DNA of 64,000 nucleotides from Symbiodinium sp. CCMP2592. Taxonomy: Eukaryota; Sar; Dinophyceae; Suessiales; Symbiodiniaceae. Below, in pieces: positions 19,576-46,536 of the stretch; the first letter of the stretch is position 1; the number at the start of each line of letters is the position of its first letter. The position numbers and the translations under genes were made by a program. The stretch lies in contig CAJNDT010003824.1 of NCBI GenBank assembly GCA_905221615.1, forward strand, positions 199,001 to 263,000, written 5' to 3'. The notes under the pieces are model-generated. The model did not search any database. It was not told where the DNA came from and was given only the letters and a program-made list of their open reading frames with translations.

Positions 19576-19582
19576 GGCACAT

Positions 19583-19785: not shown

Positions 19786-19829
19786 TTTTTTGGGGCCCTA
19801 TGCTGGGGGGAGCGCGAAAAGGGAGGCTC

Positions 19830-22436: not shown

Positions 22437-22456
22437 GAAGTTTTATATATTGCAAT

Positions 22457-22552: not shown

Positions 22553-22633
22553 TGAGATACATTCAATCGCACTACATAAGATGGTGCTTAATTAGTTTGT
22601 GTCATAGTAAGATTATAAAATCATTCCTTCTAT

Positions 22634-22933: not shown

Positions 22934-22952
22934 TCTACAACTTTTATATAGT

Positions 22953-23590: not shown

Positions 23591-24203
23591 CCGCAATGCA
23601 AGCCTACCGAGGCTTTGCCAAGCCTCATTTCCGAGTTCAGGGTTATAATCTTTTGGGTTTTTCTATTAGGGTCTTACCCCACACCTCATATTAGGATATT
23701 GGTTATAGAATGGATTAGGTTGAGTATTGTTTAGGTGCTTTGGGTTTTGGGTTCTGTTATAGATTATTGTTTGGGTTTGGTGGATTGCTTTGTTTCGGGA
23801 TTATTGTATTGGTTTTTGGGAGGTGCTTTGTGTTTTGAGGGATTTACGGGTTGAAATCTTTGGCGGGTTGAGAAATGGGTTGAAAAAAAAGGGGGGAGTT
23901 TATAGGGTATGAGGTGTGGGGTTAGCCTATGCTTGCTTAAACCCCTATATAAACGGCAAACGTTTGAGCCGCAGCTCAAAAAACCTCTGAGATGAACACG
24001 AAGTTCCACAACGCGAAATGCTTTCAAAGCCCTGCATGTCTGGCTTAAACCCGAGGGCCTCAACCCTAACCCCAAAACCACCCAAAACCCGAAACGCAAA
24101 GCCTAAAGCCCTAAAATCTAAACCCCCTGAAGCCCTACGTAACTCTAAAGCCCAACCCATAATACCCCAAGACCCTAAATGCTTAGAATCCCCAGTCCCT
24201 GAG

Positions 24204-24270
24204 GCGAGTGAGGAGGGAGCCCCTGTCCGATTCCTAGCAGAGAACCGGGCTTCAAGTCTTTGGCTTCGGT
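24204..24270 (+). CDS. Candidate exon, unknown gene
   Basis: After CCCTGAG the frame reads ASEEGAPVRFLAENRASSLW, then LRL, and runs into the left arm of a MITE. Confidence 0.3.
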
Positions 24271-24370
24271 TGACGATGCAAATCCTGCAATACCTTAATT
24301 AAGGACCCTAAACTATGGGAATTATGGTATATTCCTTATTATGGGTAATGCAAGTTTATATCATCAACCG
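24267..24370. mobile_element. MITE family 5, copy 1
   Basis: CGGTTGACGATGCAAATCCT at the left and its imperfect reverse complement ending TATCATCAACCG at the right. A related copy lies at 59734-59834. Confidence 0.75.
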
Positions 24371-25051
24371 CTTTGGGTAAAGGTTTCAAAAGGGATTTCT
24401 GTTTTTAGTAGTTTAGAGGCTCTAAGTTTCCCGAATTTTTGTATACGGGTTTGTAGTCTTTGTGTTTTTCTCGTGGCTGCCCCGCTGGACAACCAGATTT
24501 GCTCGCCAGTTTGTCATCCACTGAGCATGAACACTTGTTGCCTGAAACCCCATAGACCCTGAAGCCTTAAACTCTTCAGCCCTATCTTTGCATGGGTAGT
24601 TCTCCGAATCAGGCCCCTCTTTAGGTCAACAACAAGGGTGCGGCACCCTTGTAAACAGGACCCTGAGCGGGACCCTAATTTAGCGAAGTACCAACACGCT
24701 TTGGGATTGACGGGTTGTCCCGAAAAGCTCTGAAGTCCGAAGGTTCAGGGTTTAGGGCAGTCTCGGGTTTTTTCTGGGCTGAATTAAGGGCTTAGAGGTT
24801 TAGGGGTTGAAGGGTCTAGGGCGTTGGGGTTTCCGAGCGACTTCAGCCCTAAACCCTGGACCTTCCTAAGAGTCCCCAAGCCCCAAGCCCAGGCTGGAAA
24901 GGTTAATTCTTAAGTGTAGGGCTTCGTCTTTTTTGGGGGTATAAACCACAAGCCTCGATATTTTGACGTAACCCTCCGCCCTCTAAACTTCTCCGAACCC
25001 TAAACCCCAAACCCTAAAAACCCTCAACCCTGAACCACCTAAACGTCTCAG

Positions 25052-25134
25052 AAATTGAACGCGGTGTTGCAGGCCATCCTCTTGGACCTCCAGCGGCGCC
25101 TGGGCCCAGTGAAGGTCCCTCCGGGCTTGGAGAG
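25052..25134 (+). CDS. Candidate exon, unknown gene
   Basis: Between ACGTCTCAG and TTTAGGG the frame reads KLNAVLQAILLDLQRRLGPV, then KVPPGLES. The helix is leucine-rich. It is the last + strand exon seen before the satellite and large element. Confidence 0.5.
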
Positions 25135-25159
25135 TTTAGGGATTAGGGTTTAGGGTCCA

Positions 25160-25822
25160 AGGTTTGTTCAATGTTCTGCGCACGCCACCACGCAGGGCGT
25201 GTATGGTGGCGTGTGCTGACGTTCAGTGGTCTCGCCCAACCCACCCACCCACATCTCAACCTTGTCGCGTTTAGGGTTTCTTTGAGTTGATTGCCGACAC
25301 GTATGGAGATCGGCAGAACAAGTCTTATACACAGCAGCCTTATTTGCGACCCGTTGCCCGAAACACAAGGTTTTTTTAGGAATCCCCGAGGTTTGGCTTG
25401 GGCTTGTTTTGAAGAGTTCGTTTCCATTAGATATGCAAGTGTGACTTTGCTGGCGGTGCGGTGTTTCAGTTCAGAGCCAATACACCGTTGCGAAGCTCTC
25501 TTAATTTCAGAGTCCACATGCTTAACGAAGAATCGAAGAATTGTCATGCATGCATGCGAGACTGGAACGCTGACAGACAGAGCGCCAAGAGTTTTTCGAA
25601 GAGGTCGGCTAGGTTTTTTTGTACCTGGCATGGCGAAACAATGAAGCCGTTCTGAAGCATTGCAACATAATATCTCTGCCGAAACTTTCGCTATATCGAC
25701 TACCTGCGACACCAAAACCATAGCAAATTGTTGGTCTTTTGGGAAAGGTGCCTAAAATCACATTCCGGGCGAAAGGAGCGTAAATGAGTGTAATTGTGCA
25801 GAAGCCCTGGAAAACCTGCTCG
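25160..25822. other. No gene seen
   Basis: Open frames on both strands lack motif or compositional support. Confidence 0.4.
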
Positions 25823-26169
25823 ATCCTTACTTTTGGAGCCTTTGGTCCCTAAATTTAGGTCCCATTTGCGCCCCAATCCGTAAATTCGGGTTCCAAACCT
25901 TGATTTTGGAGCCCCGATCCTAAATTTAGATGCAAAACCGTAAGATTGGCGCACCGGTCCTTACTTTTAGGTCTGAAGTTTTTAATTTTTGAGCTCGGGT
26001 CCGTAAGAAAAGCACCGGCCCAGAAATTCAGGCTCCAAACCTTAATTTTGGTCCCAAGCCTTCATTTAGGTCCCGGACGTTGATTTTAGAGCCCCTCCTG
26101 AATGTAGAGCCCCGGTCCTTAATTTTGCAGCTTCGAGGAAAGATAAGTACCAAACCTTGATTTTAGAGA
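25823..26169. repeat. Satellite array, left of the large element
   Basis: Imperfect 30-40 bp units of the form CCTTAATTTTGGAGCCCCGG. The internal order of variants (a CCCATTTGCGCCC unit, then TTAGATGCAAAACC, then a GAGCTCGGGTCC unit) matches 44563-44800, showing the same higher-order repeat. Confidence 0.9.
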
Positions 26170-26205
26170 ACCGCCTGTGAACACAAACCACTGTAAATAA
26201 ACATG
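26170..26205 (+). repeat. Left terminal inverted repeat of the large element
   Basis: ACCGCCTGTGAACACAAACC continues CACTGTAAATAAAC; it pairs with the right end. A subterminal GCAGAAGTGTGCGTTT (26223-26238) recurs at 43953-43968. Confidence 0.65.
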
Positions 26206-26675
26206 CGCACACACTTTGGGGTGCAGAAGTGTGCGTTTGACCAAACCACTACTTTTGGGAGCCTGAGGGCTTCAGGGTTACAGGGTTTGGGGATTCAGGG
26301 GTTCAGGGTGCCGGTGTTTTCGATTTGCAACCAATGGTGATTATCTCAAGCCCTAGTGTACTTGATGATGTCACGAAGCTTCCAAGAGATGTTTGAGACT
26401 GCACTGCATATATTGATGCCGAATGAACCCCATCAAACATCTTATAGGTCCATCAACCCAGCCTTATACAATTTAAATAATCCCACTAAATCCCGCTTGC
26501 CCTCGCCATCCGGATGTTTTGGCGCTGCGGTTGCGTCGACTGGGATGAGGAGCGAACCTGGGAAAGGTTTGATTCGGATTGTTCGGGATTGGGTTACACC
26601 TTACGAGACTAATTATAAGGTCGATCCATCCATCAGTGAAAATTGGTCAAATTTTAATGCGTGCTGCAAAGCCAC

Positions 26676-28474
26676 TCACACCAACATGCTGACATCCATC
26701 ATCGAAAATGCCTCCTTGTCCAGTGCCGTCTTCATATGCAGAAGGTATCTTTGCATTGTTTTGATCGCGACGGCTCTCGCAGAAACCCGACGACTTAAGC
26801 GAGCCGTCCTTCCCACGAAGTCCTCCGACATGAACGTCGCCTCTGAGTAGGGGTTTACTGCATAGCCATGGGCTTTCCATTCTTCATAGACACGAAGAAA
26901 GATGTGGTTCAAATAGTGAGCTTTGGGTCGAAGCTTGAACAAGCAGAGGGATCGTTGGTGACACATGGACACAAGCCCCATGAATCCCAAAAGAAACTTG
27001 TGGCCACAATCGACGATGATGCGGGTGTCCTCACTCGACATGAAGTACTCTGCTTGCAGGGATGTTCGGTTTACTTGCCCGATGGCCTGTGCAGCAGCCA
27101 AAATCTCTCGAAGCAGATCATCACCTTGAACTTGTTGTTGAAATTCAGGGCGCTCCAGGAGATAAACGATGAACTTCATGATCACTGCTGTATCCATGTT
27201 CTTAGACCACTTTCCTTCAGGGTATTCACGTGTTCCACTGTATCCCAAAAGGTCCTCTGTAAGGCGTCCACAATGCAGCCTATTCTTCGTGCGTGTCATC
27301 CATCTTTTGAGGTCTGCATTCAAAGCCTCGAGGTCCTTCGCGACGCTACCTAGACCATACAATGTCTTCATCATGTAGATAAGTGCACTGGCGCTGAAGT
27401 CAAGTCCAACCCCCGCATGATACACGTGGAAGAAGTCAGCCCGGAAAAAGGCAGCGGGTGTGTCTGCCCTGTCCAGCAGCATATGCCGAACAATTGCGCC
27501 ACCAGAACCATTCCATGGCAAGGGGTTGTTGACTCGGCAGGTTTGCAACCAAGCGGGCTGGGTCAGGCCTAGGTGTTCAAACGGAATGCATACTCCGGTC
27601 TCCGGCGATTCGAATCCAGCATGGCACAGCCAACAGCAGCCTTTCTGTAAGTTTCTGGAAGTGGCGTTCTTACGGACATTATGGAAGGAGCGCATTGTTT
27701 TGGCGACTTTCTTCACAAAGGGGGAATCGCCGGTGAATCCCAAAATCACCACACGCCACGTGCTCCCTTCAGCCTCAAAGCCATCATCGAAGAGCGACTT
27801 TAACTCTTGACTCCAAAGTTCCATAAGGTCATCGAATACAGTGCCATCTTTCTTAGCCACCAAGCTGCCCAGTACAGAAAACAAAAACCTTGTAGCACCC
27901 GAATTGCCTAGCAAATTGATGCCGAGCTCGATTTCGCTTTCTGCAGGTCGCTTCGAACTTAGGCTCACAGGTCTTTTCCTCGACCCACTACCCAGTGCTG
28001 GAAACATAGACAATATCTCGATAGGATCCTTTTTGAAGCCACGGCCCCCATCCCCATGCAAGTAATAAGGGATGAGTTTCCCAAATTGAAGATTCTCGGA
28101 GTTGTGAAACAGGTCATGTTGTGGGTAGAGGCCTTTGAACTTCTGCCAAAACAAGTCCAGTGCTTCGCTTGCCAAATCAACAGGTACCCCCAACACCCGA
28201 TGGAAGTAGCCGTGATCACTCAAAGCTTCCAGCAGGCCCTTAGGTTTCAAGAAAGGGTACCTATAGCTCATGCCAGCCTTCGCCCAGCTGAACTCAATTG
28301 GCAAGCACATGCCATTCTTCAAGAAGATCTCAAATAGGGGTGCATCGGCACTCGAAACCTGCACCTTTGAAATCTGGGCCAGGACCTTGCATGGATCCTT
28401 CGATGCTGCGCAGCGGGCGTCCAAAACCAGATCTTTGGCTGGGACCTTGGCGTGGGATGATTTTGGATAGGAGG
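26676..28474 (-). CDS. Transposase-like protein (Tnp2/Plavaka/KDZ-style motif order), last exon(s)
   Basis: The open frame begins without an ATG (upstream stop near 28557); an AG in CTAG at 28475-28476 gives a plausible acceptor, so this is probably a 3' exon. About 600 codons end at TGA 26676. Motifs in order, numbered from Met-equivalent 28424: YYLHGDGGRGFKK (about 120-132), LGFTGDSPFVKKVAKTM (about 228-244), a CCWLC cysteine cluster (263-267), RADFFHVYHAGVGLDF (about 335-350) and LRPKAHYLNHI (about 518-528), then a basic C-terminus. GD...C..C...D.xH...G...PK.H...H is the order in Tnp2-like and KDZ-like DDE transposases; equating the acidic residues is my inference. I know this protein as a multicopy dinoflagellate family of unassigned function. 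Confidence 0.65.
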
Positions 28475-28751
28475 CTAGCTTTATATAGGTAGGGCTTACA
28501 GGTTTTATAGGGTTTAATTTGTTAGTATCGGCCGGTGCTATGCATGCATGCAGGACTTATAAAAATAGGGCTTTTGTAGAGATCAGGCATATCCTCATTG
28601 CCGAATCAGTGAGAACATCGACACGTGCATCACATCTCTGATGACATTGGGCCGGCTTTTCATTCTTCGCAAGCAGCTGGTGTCAGCAGGAGCTTCGAAC
28701 GTACTTGGCTGTGTGAAATCACACAAGCAGCAAGCAAAGTAACTATAGACA

Positions 28752-29324
28752 TTACCCTAGGATGGGCTCGCGCTGCGCGGCATTTGTAGCTGCACAGTAT
28801 GCAAAGTACGGAGGTGGGAACCTAGGCGTGAAGTCCTTCTTGCGCATACTCTCCCCACCCAGCTGCTTGTTTCGACAACATCGTTCCTGGTCATGAAACT
28901 CAGCTATCAGAGCAGCTTCAAGCATCTCCAGCATCCCCAGCAGCTCTGGCCGGGATACTCTGTGTAGCACAACGAAGGATTGGAAGTTTTGTGCACGATA
29001 GCTTGCCATGCGCTGAAGTGGGTCGGAAGTAAGGCCAATCTTGAACACACAAAGTGACTCGCCCCCGTGCTCCCTGCGGACTGCATTGATCACTTTCACA
29101 CAATGCCAAAGAATCTTCGAAGCAACAGCAGTTTCGGCAATCAGTCTCTGATCCAGGCCGCGGCTCTCGACTTCTTGTGGCGTGCCGGGCGACCCAGGAA
29201 CCCTAGTGATTGCAGACGCCTTTGAAGAAGGGGTTGTCATATCGATGTCCGAGTGACTTTGCTGCATCTCTTCATCATCAGAATCACTCCATGGGAAAAT
29301 AGACAACTTTGTGGCAGCTGCCAT
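28752..29324 (-). CDS. GIY-YIG-like nuclease-fold protein
   Basis: ATG 29324 starts a 190-residue product; further in-frame sequence upstream lacks support. The N-terminus is acidic and Ser/Thr-rich (FPWSDSDDEE). The domain spans about residues 94-180: FKIGLTSDPLQRMASY matches the second half of a GIY-YIG core (KIG, a conserved Arg, then Tyr). EMLEAALIAEF supplies the usual metal-binding Glu, and CCRNKQLGGESM plus PPPYFAYCAATNA close the domain. The GIY half is poorly conserved, so nuclease activity is uncertain. This family is frequent in dinoflagellate genomes. It ends at TAA 28754-28752, just upstream of the transposase-like exon on the same strand. It could supply strand cleavage for the element. 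Confidence 0.65.
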   Translation of the reverse strand: MAAATKLSIFPWSDSDDEEMQQSHSDIDMTTPSSKASAITRVPGSPGTPQEVESRGLDQRLIAETAVASKILWHCVKVINAVRREHGGESLCVFKIGLTSDPLQRMASYRAQNFQSFVVLHRVSRPELLGMLEMLEAALIAEFHDQERCCRNKQLGGESMRKKDFTPRFPPPYFAYCAATNAAQREPILG

Positions 29325-30569
29325 GAGCAGAAACACGAAGGCTTCCAGACCTATACAAGCATACCTTTTGAGCTGCAAACCCCAGGCGAGGTTTCGACGT
29401 GAGTAGCTGGGCTCAGGTAATGTTCGGATGTGCAGCACATGCACACGTGCAACTTCATGTGCTGGAATGCATGCATCAGTCACTGCATGAGGATGCACTG
29501 GAAATCGACGGACTCAAGCGATATGACTGCCGGGGCCCCAACACCCTTGCCATACTTCACGGCAAGCTGGTAGACTTGCTGGCTGATGATGGGACCGTCG
29601 TCGTTGCCTGACAGGCTGTTCTTGCTAAGTTTCATTTTGGTCGAATGGTAGCTTTAATTACACAGGAAGAGTAAACGTGGGGCATGTGGGGCGATCTAGG
29701 TGGACTGGATCTGGATTGTTTTTTTAGAGGAAACACAGGTAGTGAACATTTGTTTAAACAAGGGTGTATCGATCTATATAGAGGTCAACTATGATTGTTG
29801 GGGTTCTCACATATGATCGATCATACCTATCAGGCCTAAACTGAATGATTCATAAGAGCCTTCGGAGCTTTTTAAGTCCAACTGGGATATAAATACTGTT
29901 GGCAGGAGACTTCGGAGTCTTGTATGCGTGAACATTCTGATCTCGATCTGGTCAAGTGCTGTACAGACATTCTCCCCAGCCCTCCCCAGCAAGTAGATTT
30001 AACGCATTGTGTCGGTCGCGATGTAGCCCCTAGTCACTGTTCCTTGAAACACGGAACGTCGCTTGCAAAGTGCAGCACGTGAACCTACAGATTGCTTCGG
30101 CCAGTCGAACTTCGAAGATTTATAGTTCTAGACGTCTATGCACCTCCATGCTTCCATGCAATCAACAACAGTGGAATTCACAACAGCAGCCGAAGCCTAG
30201 AACACACACACACACACACTGAATTTGCGTGAAACAGGCTTTGCCCTGCATCTTATGGCGCGCTGGCTTCCACAAATGTTTTTGACGCCGAAACACGTCA
30301 TGCGGTCTCCGTAGGAACTCCCCTACACAAGCCCTCGGAATAAGCAAGGACGACAGTACGCATGTTGCAGCCCTGAGCTAGAAGGAGGCCCTACTTATAA
30401 GCCATGGGTAGATACTGCATGCCTGACTACGCACGACGTGTCCAGGGCGACCCCACATAGATCATTTTGGACTGACGAAGTACAGTCAAAGCCTCTCCGC
30501 AGCTATTGCATCGAAGCACCAAAATCAAAATCTATAGCCCCGTGCCCCACTCATCCCATCGCCGAGTTC
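29325..30569. other. Intergenic part of the large element
   Basis: Contains a short (AC)n at 30207-30220 and GGTCAAC/GATCGAT palindromes; no gene is supported. It probably holds the promoter of the GIY-YIG gene. Confidence 0.4.
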
Positions 30570-33500
30570 TCACTCGGCTTCCTTCTTGGCCGCTTTGCGG
30601 GCCCTTTGCAGCAGTGACCTCGGTGTAAAGGCTTGGAATCGGGTTGTGGGAGAGTAGCTACCTGTAGGCTAATGAGTGCAGCTATATCTAGGCGGGGTTT
30701 GTGGGAAGCATCCACCTACGTACTCTGTAGGCTGTATACAAATCGAATAGAGTTCGAATCCTAGCTTTAGAGAAAAATCTATAGGGTAACTTTATAGCTA
30801 TGGTTACCTGTATATATGTCCCTGTAGTGTATATATAGGAGCCCAGAAAAGAGTCCTGAGTTATATTTGGCGCTGCAGGATTAGAGTTCTGCACGACCCC
30901 AAGACCTCGACGTGAGCTAAGACAAGACAAGGACCCACCATCCCAGAATAAAAACCCATATAATAGTTTATTTTAATTGGTGCTTATAGGGTTTAGGGTT
31001 TCGGGTATGCTTATGCATGCATGCATTAACATACACTCTGTCCGGTAGTCCCTGAGTATAATGCCCATGCACAGATGCAACATAAGTGAAGTCAGATTGT
31101 TCATGAACGGCCCGAATTGTTCTGAAGATGGAGCTATAGGTTATATATACATGCATGTAACCGTGGCGTCTCTCAATCACACTTCAGAATTTTAAGATAC
31201 ACTAGCTAAACCTATCCCGGAAGCAATAAGATTCCTCAAGCGGCAAGCAATAGGATCGAGCGATAATTGTAGTTCGCAATTTACATATGGACATCACGAA
31301 AGCCGGCTCCTGCTGAGATCGACTAAGACAGAAGCTTGTTGGAAGCCTCCAGGGCCTGGGACTTGGCAGTCCTCGGCACATTGTGTTTCGGAGTCAAATC
31401 GTCTTGTACGTATGATCATATGCATGACTTGACATAGATTAGCCATCAGCCTCGTTCGGCCCAGCAAGCACTTGGAGACTCAGCTCAGCTGACAATCAAT
31501 ATGGAGCCAAGCTTCAGTTTCTGAGCCTTGACAAAGTAGGCCTTGCACTCGGTCTGAAGCCTGAGTTATATAGCACTTAAGCTGTTGGCCGGTGGGTTTA
31601 GCTTCGGGCGAGGTTGACATAGAGGGTGCGAATGATTCTAGAGTCATACGTCAGGATCATGCATGCAGCTCCTAGCTAGTATATGTCGACATAAATATAA
31701 TGTGCCAGCTCATATGCATTATACTTGCAGATGAACGACCCATCGAATTGGAAAGGTTCGGGAAATGGGATGCACACAAACCCTCACATACCCAAGTATG
31801 GAAACTGCCGCCCGAAGACTTGTCGCTGTAGCCGGTTGTGCTCCCTTCTGCTCTAGCTTCAGTCATCTCCTCGTACAAGTTCTCGAAGTCCTTGATCAGC
31901 ACGTCCATTTTTTTCAGAGTCCTTATTCAGGTTCTGTGGCGCGAACGATATGAAAACTCTCAGCCGTGCTCTCAGGCTGATATGGGGCTCATAGTTTTAA
32001 ATCGGGCTAGCCACTGATTTGCTTTAGCATCCCCAGCCACTGTGGGCTTGATCTTCTCCACAAAGGACTCGAGGGAGCCCTTGCTCTTGAGCACTTGTTT
32101 CATGTACTCTTTCATCTGGGAAGCAACCTTAGATGAATTGGTGACCCCGGGCATTTAGCGACACATATACCATCACTTCTGCAGCAAGTCAGGTTGGCAT
32201 CCTAGCAGTCACATGGACATGCAATGCTAGGGGCACTCATGTGATGATCACCCTCAAGCTGCTTCTCGTTGTTATGCACCATGCCATCGTCATCCGAGAA
32301 GGAAAATCCATCAAGAAGAGCCCCCGGCTTGAAGTTCAGCTCGTCCCCTCCCTCCCCGCTGTACGTTTGCTGCCTCTCAAGCATCTCTAAGTCCTCCTTG
32401 GTCATAGTGCCCGTGGTCCTTGTGTTCACCCAGTACTCCAGGGTCTCATCGTCGTATTCACAGGTCCTTGGTTTCTCTAGTGGCATGCATGGGGTTGTGT
32501 AGCTGCATGACTCCATTCAGCCAATAGGAGAGACTAAATTATGCACGCGTGCTAGGTTATATTCTGAGCGCAGGAAAGATCATGCATATTGACAACACAC
32601 AAGAATTCCATGAGTCCCTTCCCAAGAGCTCTATCAATTTAAGTGACCCCGAAATACGCTGAAATGGGATCGATCGAAAACAAAGCCCTCAGGGATCAAC
32701 TTAAAACTTCCACGGGTCCTATGAAGCTCCAGCCTGATCGATCGAGATACCAATTGAAGATCGATCGAGGTCTTAATTATAAATAAGCCTAGTTGGGCCC
32801 CCGATCTCTAGTAATATACAATGCACTGGTGGAGGCAAAAAACTGAGCATAGATCGTAAACAGCTATATACATTCACGGATTAAACAACAGCTTGGCTAC
32901 ATATGATCCTACCTAGCACAACGTAAGATCAGCTCTAGTGGAACAGCTATGTACCTACGATGCATTAAAGACACAAGCTGCGGACGCAGTGGCCTGACCA
33001 AGTTGCGCTTCGTGGCCCAGGCAACGATTTTTTCGATGCGGGACCTGAGCTGCTGCGGTTTATTCTTGTACGAGGCCAGATCGGTGACTTAATGGAGCGT
33101 CATGAAATTAGAATCCCGACTTAACCCATGGGTGCTACGAAGTGACGGACTGTAGTGGAGCTCCGTCTTCATATCGTCCTTGGAGTAAAATCCTCCCTTA
33201 ACCTCGAGCTTCTTGCTTCGTGTCGTGCGGGTCATGATCGTAATGGATTCCATGAATACGGCCTCAGGGATAAGCGAATTCATGGACCCCAGTGTAGATC
33301 AATCATAGCTATAACGATCGCAGAAGATGAGATCCTGAAGCATTTTCACCCGGCACCTGCCTTCACACCCCCAGCTTTGCACCACATGCGGAACAACGTG
33401 TCTCGACCTTTCCCGGCGTCCTTCCACATCTCAAAGATGTTCTCAGGAACCTCCAGCTTCCCTGTCGCCTTTTTAGGCGACACGATCCTTCGCACCTTCT

Positions 33501-34721
33501 CCCTCTCGAGCTTGGTCATGGCATTGAAGTTCAGCACCTTTGGGGCCTCCTCATCATCATCATCACTCTGGGCCTCGTTGGCTGCTTTCTGGGAAGCGGC
33601 AGACTTGCTTGGCACAGGCTTGGTTGGCGTCACAGCTGGTGTGGGGGGATGAGGTCTTTTCGAGCCTCGGGCACTCGGACTCTTAAGGACCTCCACACAG
33701 GGGCTTGCCAGGTTGGCCGTCTCAGGGATGCTTGGCTTCTGGGACAGCTGTGGCTTCTGGGATTCCTGTGGCTCCGGTGGCTTCTGGGATTCCTGTGGCT
33801 CCTGCGGCTTCTGGGAGTCCTCTGGCTTCTGCACATGGGACTCCTGCAGTTTGGGCAAGATCGGCCTCATTGGAGAAAGTTCATCACCGTGCTCACTCAT
33901 TGACACGCATTTATAAGTCATGCATGGTGCATACACATCGATCGATCGCTCCTAGGTGCACTTACACACATGCGCAAACTTACGATCGATTCGTCCTCTG
34001 GGTGGGCTTTCAGCCTCGTGATCTCTTGCTGCTGGGCGGAGACCGTGGCATGCAACAGCTCCATTTTGTACAGCAGCTCCTACAATTAATTATAGTCATG
34101 GATGTACATTCAAGGCTACAAGTCTTCATAGGTATGTTTGCTTTATAGGTTCTATATAACTGTGGGGGATCTAGATCGGTCCTGCTCAACGTTGCTACGC
34201 ACCTGGGACGAAGGCGTCGGTGTTGCGGAACCCAGGGACGAAGTGGAGGATGCTTTCTCGCACGGCTTGGGAACTCCCGGCTCCTGCTTCACCTCATCGT
34301 ATTTCTTCGCATGCAGAACATATTGCAGATGTGAATGAATGCATGCATGCACATCATGCATATATGCATGTTGTGTATGCACGCATCACACATATACACC
34401 TTGTTAAGATCCTAGCTGCATGCATCGATCTGCTCAGATAAATGGAACACACAATGCGAGCTACTTGTGGTGTAAGCAGGAACTCAGAGGCTACGCAAGT
34501 ATATGTACATGCATGTATGCACGAGAAATCGAGCATTGTGTAAAACTGGCGCATGCGAAGTTCGATCCGGAATCTACAGTAAACATGTATATGCATCAAG
34601 ACCAAGTGCACTCCCAGCCACTGCTTTCAGGGGCGGCTTGGACACCATGGCCAGCTGGGAGTCCGTCCCCGGCTCGGTCTTGATGTCGGCTTGGGCGACG
34701 GCAATAGCTTGATTGATCTCC
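30570..34721 (-). CDS. Multi-exon gene of a dinoflagellate repeat-encoded family, C-terminal half
   Basis: Exons read leftward (ends approximate): 34721-34605 (EINQAIAVAQADIKTEPGTD), 34306-34202 (KYDEVKQEPGVPKP), 34082-33986 (LLYKMELLHATVSAQQQEI, donor GTAAGT), 33843-33350 (Pro/Gln/Ser repeats, then FEMWKDAGKGRDTLFRMWC), about 33285-33150 (RTTRSKKLEVKGGFYSKDDM). Then 32516-32210 (YDDETLEYWVNTRTTGTMTK), 32150-31972 (MKEYMKQVLKSKGSLESFVE) and about 31908-31790. The last exon ends LLQRARKAAKKEAE at TGA 30572-30570. The piece FEMW...KDTLF...W followed by a K-rich GFYSKDDM block is one I know from many dinoflagellate predicted proteins. Function unknown. Introns carry CATGCATG motifs. Confidence 0.5.
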
Positions 34722-37374
34722 TGCAGGGGGATCTATAGGGAGGGCCATGTGATTGCACAGAAGTAACTTAACAAGATAGGCCGAAGTACTGAATCAGTGA
34801 ATGGTGGCATATGCATGACCAAACATGTTTGGGAAGCAGATCAAGTCTGTTATGCATATGATGCAACAAAGCTTTCCTTGGCTAGGGTCTGCAAGTCAGC
34901 AACACTTTCACGCGAAGCGCTGCGCAAAAGAAACGACAAGCCGGATGCCAATGTCTCGGCAGAATGCACGTCCCTCTGCAAAGCCATTGCGTACCACGGG
35001 GTCGTGTGCTGAAGCGCTGAAAAGTAGCGCAAAACGAGGCCAAAAATAAAACTCAGGGTTGCGCGCCGAAGAGCGCTGGTAGCGTGCCTAGAAGTGCTGG
35101 TTGCGTGCCTAAAAGTGTCTGTTTGGATTTGGCGTTTTTTACATAAATTTAACTTAACTGCGCAAAACGAACTCGGACACGCTACTCTGAGCCATGCGTT
35201 GCGTGAAACAGGAATATGAACCCGCAGCCCTGAGCTGAATCACTCAATTCATGAAGGCCTGAAGCCTGAAGTCACGCAGTTCATTGTGTAAGGGGAAGCC
35301 TAGAGCTCACAACCTTGAGACACGCAGCCCCAAAACCCGCAGCCCCAGGAAGCACGCAGCCCTCAAACCCGCAGCCCTGAAACCCCAAAGCCCTAAAACA
35401 CGCAGCCCTGCCGGAAGCCTAAAGCCCTGAAGCCCGCAGCCTCCTTAAAAATAAAAAACACGCAACCCTGAAACAACACGCAGCCCTGAAACCGATAGCC
35501 GCCAAAGCCACGAAACACGCAGTCCTGAAACCCAAAGCCCAAAACACGCAACCATGAAACTGAAAGCCCCAAACACGCAACCCTGAAGCCCAGACAGTCT
35601 TATATATAAGCTCGAAGCCGGCCCACATAGAACCCTGAAACCTGCATTAATGTCCCACGATAGAGAGCAGGGGCCCTGAAGCCCACACGGTCCTGTCGAT
35701 CCCTTCAAAAACCACCACTGAAGACCCTGAAGCCCTGAGCCCTGCAGCCCCATGCAGCAACTGCATGAGAAACTCTATATAGCTTCTATATCGGTCGATT
35801 GTAGCGATTCTCCGTGATGCAGGCCAATGATCGAACAATACCATATTGCAAGTAGATTCAGCTGCTGAAGAGAAGCCTCCGAAGAAAACACGCCGTCCCA
35901 AGCCCCACAGAGCCACAGCCCCGCAAACTCGAAGGCCAGAGGCTCGCAAGACCTGAAAGACTTTTCCATTGAACCTCGATTAAGCTAGCTTCTATATGGC
36001 CCTTAAGCTCCTTTGCACCCCACCTACAATCAGAGGGAACATAGCACTGCAGTGCCCCCCCAACGTCATATTGCTTTCGACAGTATCCCGATGGATCCAT
36101 ACAAGAAATATACTGAGCCACCGAGAACCTTGCCCGCACACATCCTTGTTTAAGGCGACTTGCGAGCCAGAGGCAAGTGCATCCGAGGCAAGCCAGCGGC
36201 CTTCTGAACATAAGTCGCACTCTAGACCGCCTACCTAAAACTCCTATAATTGATCAGTCTGTTCAGCAACTGGACAGATGTATGCGCATCCTTGTGGCAC
36301 GCAGTTCCCTCCTGAAGCCCCGGCAGGACCGTAGTTTAGTATATATATATATATATCACCGAAATAGCCCAAGCTTTGTCTGCAGGTTTGACTAATTAAC
36401 CTAATAGAAAACCTATATATATACCCTCTGGCACTAGCTAGACTCCATAGGAGTTCATTTCATTGCAGCCCTCCCTGAGTTTAAGTATAATACATTGGAA
36501 ACCTCATCACTGCCTGGGTGCTCCCGGAAACATACAGCACAGACCTGTAACTATCCGAATTCCCAGAGTGTTCTATATAGTTAAGCTAGGGCAACTCTAG
36601 TCTTGCAAGGGCGTAGCTTTCTGAGGGTTTGGGTTGGCTTCGGTCTAGCTTTAATTTAAATCGATCTACTTACGTATAGCTAGCTAGGATCATACATGAG
36701 GCCACAAAAGTTCGGAACCATGGCACAACTTCAGGCCATGGGCTCGGTAACTGTATTTACTAACAATCGACGACTTAGCCTATATACTTCGATCGATCAA
36801 TGTAGATGGAGACCCACGAAGACTTATAATCATATTTATCGGATGTAAACTTTTGTACACCAAAGCAGATCCATGCATGTCCGTCAATGGGGTTAAGCTA
36901 GCTAATGCATGCATGTGGCGGGTTTAGGGGTTTCCTTGTAAAGGGTTTACACAGTTCCCAGGAGTTTCGGGGTCTAGGGTGTATAAGGTTTATACAGGGG
37001 CTTCGTGGCTTAAGGTGTATACATATATATAAGCTTCAGGGGTTTCGGGGTTTAGGGTGTTTGCCCGATCGAGAATATGCTGGCCTGTATAATACTCACC
37101 CAGCTACCTTCAATTAACACCCCAAGAGCACACAGGTATTGGATCACCCAGGGCATGAGGCTCCAGCTGAAGAAACTTCCACATGGTTGCCATCTGCAGC
37201 TGCAACAACAACTGCACTCTGAATTACAAAAGCTTCAGGACCTAAATAAGTCCGTGCGGACACACACATAGAAAGGCTGTGCCACCCTCAAATGCAAAGT
37301 GCACTTTGTTTAATACTATGGCACATGCGTACGATATGTTTAATTGTTAGTATGTGCCCAGAAGCAGGACAACT
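34722..37374. other. Probable intronic or intergenic part of the large element
   Basis: A stretch of AACACGCAGCCCTGAAACC-like short repeats (35220-35740) and TATATA runs; no firm exon seen. Confidence 0.35.
35220..35745. repeat. CGCAGCCCTGAAAC-type tandem-like repeats
   Basis: Imperfect units of AACACGCAGCCCTGAAACC recur about twenty times. Confidence 0.75.
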
Positions 37375-40300
37375 ATGCAAAGTGAGTTGCAGGGAAGCAG
37401 GGCTTCCATTCCGCAGGGATTTTAAGACCTTTGGCCCCATAAAGATACTCGAGCAACTCTGGAACACCGGCATCGGACCAATCATCCTGCATGTCCAGCA
37501 TCCGAAGCTTCTCAACTGTCCAGGCATCAACCATGCCGCATGGCCGCAATGCCGGGGAGCCGTTGAAGGAGGGCAGAAGCTCGGCCATGTGCCGACCAAA
37601 TGATGCGGTGTAGGTCCTCGGAAGAGATGTTGAGGGGTTCGGAAAGACTACGTGTTTGGATTAGTTTCCCGGGGCTATAGCAATATAAGTATGGGGTGGG
37701 CGAAACAAGCAAGCTACTGACCTTCAAAACTGAGGCCGTGTCTGAGTTCCCTTAAGCTCACGGTTTCCCGTAAACTTTTCCCTGCCGTCTTTGCCCACCT
37801 TTCGAGTGACAGTACGAACATCACCATGCTTGCCGCGCTGTCGTTTCTTGAAAGCTGATGTCAATTTCCCTTTGTTGAACATCAAGACCTTCCGGTTGGA
37901 ACTCCACAAAGCCGTTCTCTTAGGACAAGTGTGGTTGTAGTGCATCATCCAGAACCGGCAAACATAGACCTGCAGGGCCCTAGGGTGGATGCCGACGATT
38001 GTACGATGTTCAGAAAAGCTTGTAGTCTTATCCACGGGGCCACAAATCTACTTTGCAAACCCTTTGCCTTGTGGGTCCGACACAGCCACTGAAAACGAGG
38101 GTGACGCCAAATCAGCGAGGAAGCAGGTTGTTCGATAACCCAGCTAGCTTGCATGGCCACACAAAGTACCGAAATAAGAATGGTCCTACCGAGGCACGGA
38201 GATGGCTTGCATCTGGGATTGAAAGGCAAGGGCCCTCCTGTTTCGTTTTAGGGATGTTAGGGTTTTATATATAAGCATATAGGGGGTTTATAATCTATAA
38301 TTATAAAAGGATTCATATAGACCGGGCTGGGGTTTAAAAAGCTATACCTGGAGTCTGTACGGGATCAGCTAGATAATCATGCAGTATAATGATGTTTCTC
38401 GTATACGACAATGCGTGGGTCCTGCAGAGCTGTTGATTTCCCACTCGTACAGATGGGGCTTCTTGGTTCCCACTCGCGTTCAGGAAGGATCTTCGAGTGC
38501 TGTTTCGGCACATGGATACCCAGCTGCCACACTGCAAGCCCTGCCACAAAGTAAAGCCTGAGCGACTCCCCTTGAGCACGGAGAGGAGGTGCAACCTGGA
38601 TTCGATCGAAGGACCACACAGACTACAATGCATTGCTGAGCAGTCAAAGACTCGATCATTACAATTTTAAGTGATTCATGCCGCCGTTATGAACTCGACT
38701 AAGTCTGGAGCGCAAACCCTGCTGGAGAGAGGATGTCCATGCATCTGTGACGCTCAATGTCTAGTGCAGCTGTGTTGTCCTTGTACATTGACTGGATCTC
38801 AGCAGTCATTGTTGCTTTACCAGCATAGTGCTCCAAGAAGACAAACTCCTTGAAGTCAGAAAGATAGTCATTATTTCAGACAGGCTCAAGAAATGCATAC
38901 ATATTCCGCACAGTCCTTCTGCGAGGAGAGCCGCTCGTTGAAGAGTAGACACAGCACAGCTAGGATAAAGACCTGCGTGCAGCAAACGACATGGTTCTAA
39001 ATTCGGAAAGCTCGTACATTGTCAAATCACATCTGATCAGTTTGTACAGAGGTCCATCGAACGAGCATATCGGCCGGGATCGGCCGTTTGCGTGTGTGAA
39101 CTATATAACATGTCACGTCGAGTCTGTATTGCACGCACACATCTACACACATGCTTCCTGGAATCCCCCACCTGGCCTTCGGAGCTTGAAGCCTCATCAG
39201 GTTTTCCACCAGCTGGTAAAGCTGCATGCCGAGACAGGAGGACCGGCTGGAACCAGAAGTTGCTCTAGGGGAGCGAGCGATGCCAACATGGCTCCAATGA
39301 TATGCTTTCGTACTGTTTTGCATGCAGGACAGTGCAGCAACAAGTCAGCATAGATGCACAGAGATGCTGCAAAGCATGGAAACCTACCCTACATGTGTCA
39401 CGACATACTGAAACCCAAAGCCTTCCCCGGAGATCGTGCCTGACTCGGTTGCAAGAGTTTCCTGGCTGTCCGCATCGGAAGGATCACGACGAGGAGGCGG
39501 CATGACCTGCGCGATGGGTGCTGAAGCTCGGTGTCTCGGATTGGGGCTCGGCTGCAAGAGTTGATGCAAGGAGTGGCCGTACATGATTTCTTGCATTGAG
39601 AAGCACAGACAGAATACAGGCTCCAATCTTTTTCTTCTTCGTGCATGAGCGAACACTGCAGAGCATGTGATGCGTGCGTTCGAAGTGAGCACTTGAAAGC
39701 TTTAAAGTCGAGGAGTCGTCTCTGATCAGCAAAGGCAGCCAACACTGCAAGTAAAGCACAGTGCTTTTGGCCATCACATCACCGATAGCTGCACTACAGC
39801 TACGAGCTACCCTACATATCCTTTAGATTAGATTCCGGGTCTAGTTTCAGGTGCTGGCTGCCCTCCAATCAAAATCGGCGGGCCGAGGCCGGAAGCAGGA
39901 GGTTCTTTACCCCAGGTCCCCCTGCTGCAGCTACAGTGCTAAGCCACTCGATAAACACATCAGTGCGCAGCGCACCTCGCAATGGCAGCCTCGTATCGCT
40001 TGAGAGTGGGCCTCTTCCCAGTCTCACCAAAGAGCTTCTCCCCGACATCCGACCATGTCTTGCCTGAAAACTTGGGGTTCGAGAGATTAAGTTTAATTGT
40101 ACAACATGATAGCACACTCTCACACACAGAGTTTATCGATCGACAAGTTACTAACGCGGTCATCATTCAGAAAATCAAAAGTCCACTGTGACACCGTGGG
40201 GAGCCAATCCTCTTCATTCTCTACCGGCGTGTTCTTTAAGGCTTCGGCCACATGCTTCCAGAAGGGATCCTGCACAACGTGCATGCATAAACATGAGATA

Positions 40301-43277
40301 CCTGTGCATGAACCGGTCACAAAGCAACAGCACGATCAATGGTATGCACATGCGACAACCCGTACTGTCCTCGAGTTTGCCTGGAAACCTAACGAACGGT
40401 CGGATGCGGCCATTGAACGCATCCTTGATCGCGTTGAATTTCGCCTGGTACCAGGATCGCGAAGGGAAGTACCGGCGAGCGAACGTTGGGACATCCTCCT
40501 TCTCTTCCTCCACGGGCTCGGCCTCTTCCTCCTCCTCCTCCGGGGTCGGCTGCTTGCCACGAACACGTTTGGCAGGACGCTTTCCCGCTCCCTGCTCAGC
40601 CTCCCACGCGGCCCATTCCTCCTTTGTCCACTCCTGTTCATCCTCCTGCGGCTCGCGATCCTCCACACCGGCCACATAGCCATCCCCAACGTGTTCATTG
40701 GGGTCGTACTCGTAGTAGACCGTTGCGTTGTCAGCTTCCTTTGCCTTCGCCTTCGCCTTCTTCCCCTTCTTGAGCAACTTGCGCTTGCTCAGTTTTCGAG
40801 CAATCACACCCGGCTTGGGTTTGCAAGGCTGCTTCTCCTCCTCCTTCTCCTCCTCCAAAGCCTTGCGCTTCGTAGCCCGAGCCTTCGGCCCAACCTTCGA
40901 ATCCATCGAGTCCTTGACATCTTTTTTGGATTCTTTTTTGGGCCGGCCGGGACCTCGCTTGGGCTTTGCGACTCGATCTGTCTCAATCTCCTCAGACGGT
41001 CCCGGCTCCTTGCCACCGCCAGGGGCAGCATCCGTCTTAGCCTTCTTCTTGGCCGTCAAAGCGAGCTGGGCTTGTCGTGTCACCACCGCTGCAACCTCTG
41101 ATCACCACAGCATCACCGTACACAGAAGAAACGAATGGAAAAGAAATTTTGAGCAAATATCATCTATAATGCCCATGGACATATTGGGTTTAGACTGCAT
41201 GAATCAGATACCGACATGGATTCTAATCTCGCCTGGTAGCTGGCTCACCGATCAGCTCCGGCGAAGGCTCAGGCTCACGACTGTGGATTTCATCATTCAG
41301 TCTCTTATTTCGGAATGCCTCCTTCTCTCGAGCTTGTGCTGCCTCCTTCTCTCGAGCTTCTGCCGCCTCCCTCTCTCGAATTTCTGCTGCATGCCTCTCT
41401 CGATTTGGAGCTGTGTCTCTCTCTCCATCTCGACCGAGTAAAGCAGCAGATCGAGCTGCTTCAACCCGACACACATGTTCTGCACGTGCAGAATCGAGCC
41501 ATGCCTGTACGTAGTGCTCGGGCTGAACCAGATACTGCTGAGTGTCCATGTTGTCGACAGCATTCGAACTGCCTAAAAGTGCATGTGATACATCATGCAA
41601 AGACACGTGCATGCGTTGAAAAAAATCACGTATTGTGCAAGCATGTCACAGTGACTGCCACTGCCAACTGATGTAGATCCTTCTTCAGCTTCGAAGTTCA
41701 GCTTGCGACGCGTAGCATCCGGAAGATCCCCTGGCTTGAACTCCTTATTGCGGACCTTCGACCTTAGTACACATGCATGCATGCATGGATCCTATATATA
41801 TTGACATGCGGACCGGGCATTGCAGCACATGCCCACACAAAGAATCGAGATGCAGCTTGTCGTTGACAACAGCCAGCATCTGCTGCAACCTTGCAGGATC
41901 CATCCTTGAAAGCTGGCCAGCCAGTCCTGCAAAAGAACTCGGAGTCGTAGGAGTGGGATCTCGCACGGGCGCTGGCTTCACGGAAATAATCTCCTTAAAC
42001 CATGCAATTCCAATCGAAAGAATGCGCACACAGAAACTGCAGAGCAAAACATCAGTGTTCAGTCAATCGATCGAGATCTATATGTAGACTCTGTGCACAT
42101 CGAATCATGCAAGGCTCAGGGCTTCCAGGGGACAGGGGTTCGGCAAGAGCACCCTTCACTGGAGTCTGTCCCGGAAGCGAGTCACCTGAGGGTGGCTTGT
42201 GTTCCGTCTCCACATCGCAAATGGCCGGCAGGCTGTCGTCACTCAAACCCTGCATCATCTCCAGAGTATCCAGAACAGGAGCTGCCATCACAGGTGGGCC
42301 TGCTGAGTCAGGCTTTTCATGCCCAGTTTCTGGACGATCCGCCTGCAAGGGCTCCTTGCTCCTTCGGATATTCTCATACGTAGCCGGGTCAAGCGAAAAC
42401 CCCAGCATCTTCTCGAGTTCTTCTCGAGGAGGTGCTTTCAAATACACCTCCAAAGGCGACTCGGCATTCCGCTCCCCAAGAGAGGAATGTAGGCTCTGTC
42501 TCAGCGAAGCATCGTCAGCCATGTCACTGTCGTCGTCCGAACCACAACTAGCAATCGGCTTCTGCTTGGGCGACTTGGCTAGCGCAGAGCGGCCTTCCTA
42601 AATTCAGCAGCAGGCACAAGGATCCAGCACAACAAATACATGAGAACATACATGCAGCACATGCACTGCAAACATCACTGCCAAAAGCATTGCTCTTCTC
42701 GTTTCAGAATCGGCATATGCAGTTTCAGATGCTTTGGATAAGTCGAACACCATGTTTCGGATCTCTTCGTCCTTATATCGAACATCTTAACTATTGGCAA
42801 TGCAGGGCCGCAGGGCCCAGAATTTCCGTATAAAAAGGAATCTCGAGAAATACAGTCATGCATGATATGCATGTATATCCATGGCACACGTGGAATCTCC
42901 CATAGTGTCCACTTTCGTTTGATCACGGTGAGCATGGACTTGATTGCTTCTGCTGATTTGGCGATGTTCTTTTCTCTTCGAAGCTTCATATCCATGGTAT
43001 CAGGCTTCACTGGCACGTCCTCTGCTTCTGAATCATAGAATTTGCGCACTGCTTCTTTGATGAGTTCCACAGGTTTGCTGATTCTTCCATACCTGGCCAT
43101 AGCCTCCGTGAAGGGCTTCAAGATAATATGATTCAGTCTCATGTTTGCAAGGGTAGGGAAAACCTGGTTCCTGTTCTTGCAGTCTATGAGGAGCATGGAC
43201 CGAGATCTCGCACGCTTCCTCAGGGTTCGATGCTTCTCCCATTCATGGCAGCACGACAGGAAACTGAGTTTCGCCAT
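37375..43277 (-). CDS. Multi-exon AT-hook/coiled-coil gene of the large element
   Basis: Likely start ATG 43277 (MAKLSFLSCCHEWEKHRTLR). Exons leftward, ends approximate: 43277-42892, 42599-42125 (SPKQKPIASCGSDDDSDM), 41993-41846 (LSRMDPARLQQMLAVVNDKL), 41757-41650 (FKPGDLPDATRRKLNFEAEE), 41573-41229 (coiled coil of AREKEAAQAREKEA type). Then 41094-40391 (AT hook KPKRGPGRPKK, Lys-rich, then FARRYFPSRSWYQAKFNAIK), 40268-40152, 40069-39961 (WSDVGEKLFGETGKRPTL), about 39610-39440, about 38190-38060 (VLCVAMQASWVIEQPASSLI), 37970-37725 (VCRFWMMHYNHTCPKRTALW) and 37600-37375, which ends EWKPCFPATHFA. The last three are a conserved set I know from dinoflagellate proteins. The AT hook suggests binding to AT-rich DNA. 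Function unknown. Confidence 0.5.
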
Positions 43278-43976
43278 GTAGTATGGACACGGTGACCTTG
43301 AACCCCAACTGCGATCACGAAGCTCTAACTTCCAATCACTAGATCGATCATTCCCAACATTCGCAGAAAGCACGGGGGGGAGCACCTTCAGCCAGGCTCA
43401 CCCTGATGATCGAAAACAACCACGTCATCTCCGGTCCTGGCGTGGACTTATGTGCTCAGCGTGCTGAAAAAAAAACTTCGTCAGCCCAATACATGCCAGT
43501 TGGACCCTTCGGAAGTTGATGAGGGAGTGCACGAAAGGACATGAGGGCCAGGCTTCGAACGATTGCTTACATAGGGTTTATGTATATAGGGCTTATGGGG
43601 TTTATAGGGCTTGCGATCTATAGTCTTGAATTAGCTACGATTTCTGTGACATCAAACTTCGCTTATCTCGGAGCGATCTGTCTCAAGAATCAGCAATATG
43701 CTTGCGATGCAACTAGCTAGCTAGGATATTATTCGATCTAAATTGAGCACTACCTGCGCATATCCCGTACCTGACACATGGAGGAGGGGTGCACACAGGC
43801 TCTTCAAGCCTTTGCAAAGGTCAACAGGATGCACTTTATGCCTTAAGCCTCGAAGCGGGTCGGGATTTCAGGGATAGTGCCCTGAAGCCATTTGGGCCTT
43901 CAGGGAGGCTTGCCCTGAAGCGAACCAGCCCGTATCCAAAAGCAAGCGTTTGGCAGAAGTGTGCGTTTACCGCAAC
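43278..43976. promoter_or_regulatory. 5' flank of the AT-hook gene inside the element
   Basis: About 700 bp upstream of the leftward ATG, with CTAGCTAGCTAG and a GGGCTTATGGGGTTTATAGGG segment; the promoter presumably lies here. No TATA or other box is certain. Confidence 0.3.
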
Positions 43977-44013
43977 AATGATTTATAAACAGGCGTTTGC
44001 TTTCACAGGCGGT
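43977..44013 (-). repeat. Right terminal inverted repeat of the large element
   Basis: In reverse complement it starts ACCGCCTGTGAAAGCAAACG and continues CCTGTTTATAAATC. It shares a 12-base exact core and most of the next 24 positions with the left end. Confidence 0.65.
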
Positions 44014-44925
44014 GCTTAATTTCAGGTGCAAAACCTTCGTTTTGGAGCGCCGGTACTTAATTTCAGGTCTGAAACCTTAATTTTGAGCTACGGTCCTTAA
44101 TTTTGGAGCCCCGTCCCTTAAATTTAAGCTCCAAACCTGATTTGGGAGTTCGGTCCTTAATTTTGGGTCCCAAGCCTTAATTTTGGAGGGCTGGCCCTTA
44201 ATTTTAAGTCCTCGACTTTGATTTTAGAGTCCCGGTCCTTAAATTTAGGTTCCAAATCTGGGGTCCTTAATTCTAGGTCCCAGCTGCGCACCAGTCCGGA
44301 AATTTAGGTTCCAAACCTGATTTTCGAGTGATTTTAGGTGCAAAACCTCAATTTTGGAGCACCGATCCTTAGTTCTAGGTCTGAAACCTTAATTTGTGAG
44401 CTCCGGTCCTCAATTTTGAACCCCCGCCCTTACATTTAGGCGCCAAACCTTAATTTTGGAGCCCTGGTCCTTAATTGTAAGTCGCAAGCCTTAATCTCAG
44501 AGCTGGTCCTTATTTTGGAGCTCCGGGCCTTAATTTAGAGCCCCGGTGTTTGATTTTGCAGCCTCGATCCTTAAATTTTAGGTCCCATTTGCGCCCGATC
44601 CGTAAATTTAGGTTCCAAACGTTGATTTTAGGGCCCCAGTCCTTAATTTTAGATGCAAAGCCGTAATTTTGGCGCAGCGGTCCTTAATTTTAGGTCTGAA
44701 ACCTTAAGTTTTGAGCTCGGGTCCTTAATTTTAAAGCCCCGGCCCTTGAACTCAGGCTCCAAACCTTAAGTTTGGAGCCCCGGTCCTTAATTTTATGTCC
44801 CAAGCCTTAATTTTGGAGCCCCGGTCCTTAAATTTAGGTTTCAAACATTGATTTTCGAGCCCCGGTCCTTAATTTTAGGTTCGAAACCCCTGTTATCAAG
44901 GTTTGGTCCGTAATTTATTCTTATT
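44014..44925. repeat. Satellite array, right of the large element
   Basis: Units of CCTTAATTTTGGAGCCCCGG continue for about 900 bp. A marker TTTTAGGTGCAAAACC-like unit recurs at about 44020, 44333 and 44648, giving a higher-order period near 314 bp. Confidence 0.9.
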
Positions 44926-44998
44926 TGAAGCTTTTAAAAGAAGAGGACGGCACGCTTTGACGCAGGAACCCAAGGTTTAGGGTAAATTCTCTTTGGAG

Positions 44999-45171
44999 CC
45001 AGACTGACGCTGGCACGTGGGTTCAACCCTTCTTTGCGTGGGCCGCGCTCATCGCGCGCACCGGCCTCGAGCCCTCGCCGGCCGAAGCCGGCCCAGTCGG
45101 GCTCGTCCGCGGGCTCGTCGCCACGCGGTATCGCTCGCCGCCGGCAAATGCGGCGCCCGCGGCTCGCTCCA
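44999..45171 (+). CDS. Candidate exon in GC-rich island, unknown gene
   Basis: After TTTGGAG one frame stays open: QTDAGTWVQPFFAWAALIAR, then TGLEPSPAEAGPVGLVRGLV, ending before GTTTAGGG. A second frame is open but Arg/Ser-rich. No ATG is present, as expected for an internal exon. Confidence 0.45.
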
Positions 45172-45190
45172 GTTTAGGGTTTAGAAATTA

Positions 45191-45255
45191 TACAGGGTGG
45201 CTCTCAAAATTATGGGCCGTTTTTGGGTCTCTTTTTTTATACGGCACCTATTATA
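45191..45255. mobile_element. Left-half remnant of MITE family 6
   Basis: GGTGGCTCTCAAAATTATGG and ATACGGCACCTATTA match the left half of the element at 59615-59718. Confidence 0.5.
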
Positions 45256-45966
45256 AAGCTTTGGGGGTTTTTGATTATAGTGATAGGGGATCTATCTGGG
45301 ATCTGTAGGGTTTAGGGTTTAGAATAGGGGCCTCAAGTATTATCTATGCTGTTTTGGGGCCCCCTTACTATAATCCAAAACCTATTCTAATTATTAAGGC
45401 ACCCATAGTACACGTCAGCCTTGCCCCTCACCCCTGGAGCCTAAACACTGAACCCCTTGAAGGGTTACTGTAGGGCTTAGGGATTTAGGGTTTTTGGGGG
45501 GTCAGGGAATTAAGGATTTAGGGCTTTAGGGCTTTAGGTGTCTAGTATTTCCGACACCCTAAACCTGGCAAGACCTTATCTCAGCCGTAATACAAGGTAG
45601 ACCTCTGACCGGTTCTGGAGTGTACGGACTGAAAACATCCTGAGCCTAACGCCTTACTCGAAGCCCTCTTATAAGAGGGTTTAGGGATTTTGGATGTTTA
45701 GCGGCGTAGGCATTTAAAGAGTTAAAGCTGTAGGGTTTTAGGGATTAGGATCTAAGGGTAAAGGTTTAGGAGTCGGAAGGTTGAGGGGTTTACTGTGACT
45801 GTCCAAGGATTCAAGCCTGGGATTCCGGCTTAGGGTGTAAAGCTGATAGAATCCGGGTTCAAGATTTGTCTTGCGCGATTTTGACTTTACTGCAACCTCG
45901 GTTCCTTGTTCCGCAAACAGTGTGGTAACACTCCCTAAACCGCAAACCCTAAACCCTACAGAGTAG

Positions 45967-46037
45967 AGATTTGTTGGTTACGGCAGCCGCAAGCACTGGC
46001 GTTGAACACAATTTCAAGGCGCAGCTCCCCTGGCAAG
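45967..46037 (+). CDS. Candidate exon, unknown gene
   Basis: After AGAGTAG the frame reads DLLVTAAASTGVEHNFKAQL, then PWQ, before GAATATG (GA donor). Confidence 0.4.
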
Positions 46038-46479
46038 GAATATGCCTTAGATTCTAAGGGGCTTCATACTGTGATTTCAGGTAATTATATTCCTTAATCA
46101 AGGGGTATCGGGCTCTCTGGGTATTGTTTAAGGAGGGTCCGCTGGAAGCCATCCCCAAATCCCTTAACCCCAAAAGTCCCAAACCCTTAAACCCCTCAAC
46201 CCCAAGCCCCCAAACCGGTTCAGGGTTAGGAGGTTATAGTAGGGGTTGCGGGATTTAGGCCCCCTGAAGCCTGAACCCCCAAATCTTTACATTTAAATTA
46301 CCACCCAAACCCCCTAAACCACTTTAAGTCCCAAGCCTTAAACCTTAAACCCAACACCCCATACCCTAAATCACTAAATCCCCTAAACCGCCTTAAGTCC
46401 TAAACCTTAAACCCTAAACTCTATAAACCCTAAATCACTAAACCCCCAAACCCCCAAAAAGCCCTAAAATGCGGTGCAG

Positions 46480-46536
46480 GTGATCCCCCAAGCGGCCCAA
46501 AGCTGGATGTTGCCCGTGCATCCTGGCAGGATGCAG
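46480..46536 (+). CDS. Candidate short exon, unknown gene
   Basis: After GCGGTGCAG the frame reads VIPQAAQSWMLPVHPGRMQ before GGTTTGGGG. Confidence 0.35.

Follow-up and report, generated by a model that had tools for sequence, protein, structure and literature searches.

A 17.8-kb block within a 64,000-nucleotide stretch of Symbiodinium sp. CCMP2592 DNA (contig CAJNDT010003824.1, positions 199,001 to 263,000; hereafter the window) is very probably one copy of a very large cut-and-paste DNA transposon, whose transposase would represent a new lineage of the CMCT group (EnSpm/CACTA, Mirage, Chapaev, Transib, Plavaka and RAG1). The lineage has so far been named only from Symbiodinium dinoflagellates; CCMP2592 is an isolate of Symbiodinium tridacnidorum (PMC8045281). 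The window is thus nuclear DNA of a dinoflagellate that lives in symbiosis with corals. On the strength of the block's layout alone, a preliminary description had suggested a very large DNA transposon. The proposal is supported by the RAG1/Transib-like predicted fold and CMCT signature of the protein encoded by gene B, and by the position of both of its genes, A and B, between the terminal repeats. In addition, the five gene B proteins of CCMP2592, including that of the window, apparently lie on five different contigs. Relatives of both genes (P0071 of gene A and the transposase P0011) apparently share another contig, suggesting that genes A and B are also paired at a second locus.

The last exon of gene B encodes a domain of 589 amino acids, of which the AlphaFold2 (AF2) model has a pLDDT of 92.7. 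The predicted fold matches RAG1/Transib along the whole length of the domain in Foldseek/VIA comparisons, consistent with membership of the CMCT group; the absence of transposase families from the VIA lists excludes none of them. RAG1 itself is the protein that rearranges antibody genes in vertebrates. The residues D476, D584, C615xxC618, H854xxxH858 and E885 (P0001 numbering) are retained in 66 of the 69 proteins that cover the whole site, 20 of the 89 aligned proteins having been left out for incomplete coverage. The other three are P0007, with R in place of the first H, P0059, with Y in place of the first C, and P0060, with V in place of E. The first and second Asp residues are separated by a median of 108 positions (range 103-124), as compared with 108 in RAG1 (D600-D708). 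We infer the role of the D-D-CxxC-HxxxH-E residues from this pattern and spacing. No Pfam family reaches its cut-off on gene B, and a sequence search against solved structures yielded no match; sub-cut-off Pfam matches such as Hox9_act, DUF397 and DUF6439 were not used.

The database model of this gene is P0001 (933 amino acids), which skips some of the exons. The open reading frame (ORF) at 26676-28556 (minus strand, 626 amino acids) is 100% identical, over the residues searched, to "unnamed protein product [Symbiodinium sp. CCMP2592]". An initial search gave a family of at least 67 proteins including gene B itself, and six distant members used as queries gave at least 24, two of them already found; the protein searches scored the roughly 8000 candidates richest in shared words, which makes these counts lower bounds. 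Four alignments, A1 to A4, comprise 26, 55, 6 and 77 sequences hand-picked from the matches. Seven of the 67 proteins carry a species or strain name, in each case Symbiodinium, and five carry EukProt labels, of which we take the prefix Skav to denote a Symbiodinium relative. No homologue was confirmed in viral and prokaryote contigs.

The inward-facing terminal repeats of the preliminary description are borne out. The inverted match between the two ends of the block comprises 36 columns (29 identical, 6 mismatches and 1 gap) and scores 21, as compared with no more than 13 for 4973 random segments of the window. The sequence ACCGCCTGTGAA at 26170 occurs only once in the whole window, as does its complement at 44002-44013. 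A longer inverted repeat was set aside, because the similarity past 36 bp is weak: 121 of 3000 random segments score as well. The exact termini proved less certain than had been claimed, since the outermost 3-4 bp may belong to the target. Further inward, both ends carry the 16-mer GCAGAAGTGTGCGTTT in the same (plus-strand) orientation, at 54-69 bp from the left terminus and 46-61 bp from the right; when 120-bp segments were paired at random, 4 of 2983 pairs had a word as long in common. Immediately outside the left copy stands a degenerate inverted version with which it can pair, and the segment 26201-26245 is predicted to form a hairpin (-16.0 in ViennaRNA, RNA parameters, without a shuffle control).

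The same satellite stands beyond both ends, as had been described: 25831-26136 aligns with 44554-44884 (254 of 336 columns), and the orientation is identical on the two flanks. The array is short, about 0.34 kb on the left and 0.9 kb on the right. The right array, from 44014 to about 44917, has a unit of 41 bp and by alignment a higher-order period of about 312 bp, although the ungapped autocorrelation at lag 486 is slightly above that at lag 312. The flanks were joined by script with 11 boundary-offset options, with duplications of up to 4 bp tried, and the best alignment fell at 44596 for ten joins and at 44590 for one. The top join (score 106) assigns ACCG and CGGT to the target, a 2-bp CG being duplicated, and reads AGAG-AACCGGTG-CTTAATTT; intact satellite units read AGAG-CCCCGGTC-CTTAATTT (26106) and AGAG-TCCCGGTC-CTTAAATTT (44226). 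The join at offset 3, without duplication, produces the same sequence at a score of 104, and the literal ends score 102. The literal ACC..GGT ends show no clean target duplication; the sole ones to arise are CG (offset 4) and GC (offset 5), which are both palindromic and hence weak. A CG duplication is attractive because it would place the outer bases of the apparent repeat within a target palindrome. We nevertheless regard CG at this single site as a candidate only, because the score margin is small and palindromic dinucleotides yield duplications cheaply.

Gene B may also carry a second activity. The ORF at 28755-29513 scores 19.2 bits against T5orf172 (PF10544), a GIY-YIG-like family, just below the cut-off of 20, and three of 77 gene B relatives match T5orf172 at E ≤ 1 (best 0.0017). 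In the models P0003, P0012 and P0018 the GIY-YIG-like region follows the N-terminal part and precedes the DDE domain; P0011 includes a portion of it. Its KIGLT motif is present in 5 of the 89 proteins, many of the others beginning near the last exon, where they could not contain it. The window's own database model skips the exon. The AF2 model of the stretch is poor, which leaves the assignment as a nuclease likely but unproven.

The gene A protein has a high content of K, R and E, and its GRPKK stretch resembles an AT-hook. Its database model P0068 spans 43196-39963 and stops before the C-terminal frames (37373-38850); the relatives P0069-P0071 come from Symbiodinium. The later frames contain FLEHYAGKATMT, GLQCGSWVSM and WVIEQPASS, which are reminiscent of methyltransferase motifs and give the C-terminal frames a likeness to a methyltransferase-like dinoflagellate protein family. 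We treat this likeness as a lead only, and searches of Pfam, NCBIfam and PDB sequences gave it no support. Between genes A and B lies a degenerate minisatellite of ACACGCAACCCT-like units (35320-35592). Scans of the window for Rfam families and tRNAs returned no match.

By analogy with RAG1/Transib, the gene B protein would pair both ends and cut through its DDE site, possibly via hairpins. Insertion would occur with a short stagger, perhaps the 2-bp CG, where the satellite offers a CCGG-like site. The GIY-YIG-like part may serve as a second nuclease for hairpin opening, second-strand cutting or target choice. The second protein of CACTA elements binds subterminal repeats, and the basic, AT-hook-like gene A protein may bind those of the block in a similar manner.

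The preliminary description had noted a sharp change in repeat content inside the block. This holds relative to the near flanks, where AAACCC/GGGTTT has a density of 10.51 per kb (12001-25800) and 10.8 per kb (44930-64000) versus 1.85 per kb in the block; positions 1-12000 are also low, at 1.08 per kb, and the contrast is thus local. The claim that all genes face one way is confirmed, as the 53 tblastn matches of nine family proteins (E ≤ 1e-3) all lie within the block on the minus strand. However, such gene order is common in dinoflagellates, and one-way genes alone are therefore weak proof. The nearest other transposases are 74-75% identical, the terminal repeats agree at only 29 of 36 columns, and the flank register shows small gaps, as would fit transposon-derived host genes A and B or a dead element with fossil ends. 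We consider this explanation unlikely, given that the frames remain open across the matched exons, that the signature residues are preserved there, and that several related genes exist within the same strain.

A still less probable alternative is that the block is not the real unit and the element is in fact smaller or larger: the paired ends would then belong to another mobile unit or match by chance, and the element made up of the two genes would have different ends. A single DNA copy was seen, and the ambiguity of the outer bases and of the target duplication would suit such a case. The score of the terminal repeats against random segments argues for genuine ends, however, and these coincide with both satellite edges and lie 506 bp past the gene B stop on the left and 736 bp past the gene A start on the right. 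Block size and terminal repeats would also fit a remnant of a Polinton/Maverick or polinton-like virus, large elements that at times carry GIY-YIG genes; the term GIY-YIG occurs in two polinton-like virus papers (PMC12721341, PMC12220804). This origin is hardly credible, since the last gene B domain is predicted to match RAG1/Transib instead. Of the 44 ORFs of at least 100 amino acids, four lie outside the block; 27 of the 40 inside were scanned with Pfam and gave no capsid, ATPase, polymerase or integrase match, although very divergent genes could escape. The transposon interpretation is the preferred one, and the coordinates are collected below.

Table 1. Coordinates of the features in the window (position 1 is its first nucleotide)
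Feature	Position	Strand	Basis or remark
Whole putative element, bounded by apparent terminal inverted repeats	26170..44013	.	Terminal-repeat and flank tests
Alternative span if outer ACCG/CGGT is target sequence with CG duplication	26174-44009		
Left terminal inverted repeat, imperfect	26170..26204	+	36-column match to right end
Right terminal inverted repeat	43978..44013	-	Match to left end
Subterminal 16-mer GCAGAAGTGTGCGTTT, left copy	26223..26238	+	
Subterminal 16-mer GCAGAAGTGTGCGTTT, right copy	43953..43968	+	Orientation as left copy
Gene B, multi-exon, putative transposase	26676..33870	-	tblastn exons of P0001, P0003, P0011, P0012, P0018
Gene B last exon, 589-aa domain, RAG1/Transib-like predicted fold	26676..28445	-	AF2, Foldseek/VIA, signature
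Open frame with GIY-YIG-like T5orf172 region	28755..29513	-	Pfam PF10544; P0012-homologous part 29312-28764
Gene B N-terminal exons	31768..33870	-	33870-33379, ~33265-33150, 33043-32993, 32468-32226, 32127-31768 (last match includes a stretch read as intron)
Gene A, accessory protein	37373..43277	-	
Gene A part	43277-39963	-	Matched by P0068/P0069
Gene A part	38978-38702	-	Matched by P0070/P0071
Gene A part	37630-37379	-	Matched by P0071
Gene A frames	38590-38430, 38178-38061, 37970-37732	-	Direct sequence reading
Gene A stretch read as methyltransferase-like	38061..38850	-	Motif resemblance; no Pfam or NCBIfam match
Satellite, left flank	25831..26169	+	
Satellite, right flank, 41-bp unit	44014..44917	+	Outer end placed by eye
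Candidate target-site duplication CG, left copy	26172..26173	+	Best among 11 joins, 106 vs 84-104
Candidate target-site duplication CG, right copy	44010..44011	+	
~100-120-bp element family 1	15555-15662, 18921-19028		
~100-120-bp element family 2	19581-19690, 57317-57424, 50528-50628, 16153-16259		
~100-120-bp element family 3	20708-20821, 54065-54184		

Outside the block, telomere-like AAACCCT/TTTAGGG tracts in both orientations are dense at 12001-25800 and 44930-64000; the window shows no chromosome end. The families of ~100-120-bp elements have copies that are 84-95% alike, and several elements also match their own reverse complement at 70-87%; they resemble small palindromic repeats of the miniature inverted-repeat transposable element (MITE) or introner type. 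Introners of S. microadriaticum have terminal inverted repeats and 4-bp duplications (PMC9860276). The GC content falls to 35.1% at 22001-24000, where the GC skew is 0.185; the neighboring stretches have 48.8 and 48.7%. The GC-rich left part of the window carries minisatellites of the TGTCCGGG / CCCGCCCATGT type at 2826-3277 and 9539-9702.

RAG1 derives from a transposon (PMC12730594). A family from coral symbionts with this predicted fold would add a distant branch for rooting the history of the fold's spread among eukaryotes. The gene B family has no Pfam model and is labeled "unnamed protein product" in the database. Some of the repeats classed as "unknown" in Symbiodiniaceae genomes could thereby become a testable, possibly active mobile element, and a natural protein with DDE and GIY-YIG-like parts would be offered for biochemistry. 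More tentatively, as a possibility that falls somewhat short of an even chance, dinoflagellates may harbor RAG1-fold transposons of about 18 kb that combine a DDE recombinase and a GIY-YIG nuclease in one protein with a DNA-binding, methyltransferase-like partner. Lying outside animals and fungi, these would form a further deep branch beside Transib/RAG and CACTA/Plavaka, process their ends in a manner of their own and perhaps home to a satellite palindrome.

Among known systems, Transib, RAG1 and ProtoRAG (BbRAGL) resemble gene B in the predicted fold across the 589 amino acids and in the D-D-C(2)C-H(3)H-E order, whereas sequence identity is about 10%, without a sequence-level match. Unlike them, the block has a GIY-YIG-like region in the transposase gene, a second basic gene and a length of 17.8 kb. 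Transib ends and recombination signal sequences start with CAC, and the Transib duplication is 5 bp; the ends of the block lack the CAC start, and no 5-bp duplication is seen: duplications of up to 4 bp were tried, and the first bases outside the ends differ. No RAG2-like (kelch) match was found among the 27 of 40 ORFs of the block scanned with Pfam.

EnSpm/CACTA elements share with the block the CMCT signature, the large size and a two-gene plan of transposase and basic second protein (TNPD/TNPA). In the red alga Chondrus crispus such families reach 16-20 kb with 4-5 ORFs (PMC6431247). EnSpm/CACTA proper has CAC..GTG termini and a 3-bp duplication (PMC12730594), whereas the block ends in ACCGCCTGTGAA or CCTGTGAA and has a 2-bp duplication at best; EnSpm/tnp2 is not among the 25 families listed, out of 26 Pfam families for 77 relatives. 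Plavaka likewise has the CMCT signature, and the 2-bp target duplications of PlavakaA are matched by the possible one here, but the 5'-TGT..ACA-3' ends of PlavakaA (PMC12730594) differ from those of the block. Pfam Plavaka was hit by one of 77 relatives at a non-significant E of 0.053, and by none of the other 76 at E ≤ 1. With respect to the 2-5 bp duplication of the CMCT group, CG fits the satellite register best, narrowly and at one site. The block ends, ACCGCC.. or CCTGTG.., differ from 5'-CA..TG-3', which does not disqualify the element because the source restricts those termini to most cases.

KolobokP is also a DDE transposon carrying a homing-type nuclease (PMC9587614), but it has another transposase superfamily, a His-Me finger nuclease downstream of the transposase, and long terminal direct repeats. 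A literature search, with most subscription journals, preprints and Repbase outside its coverage, found no report of this element or combination. The parts have precedents in the 16-20 kb En/Spm elements of a red alga and in the KolobokP nuclease, and their combination appears to be new.
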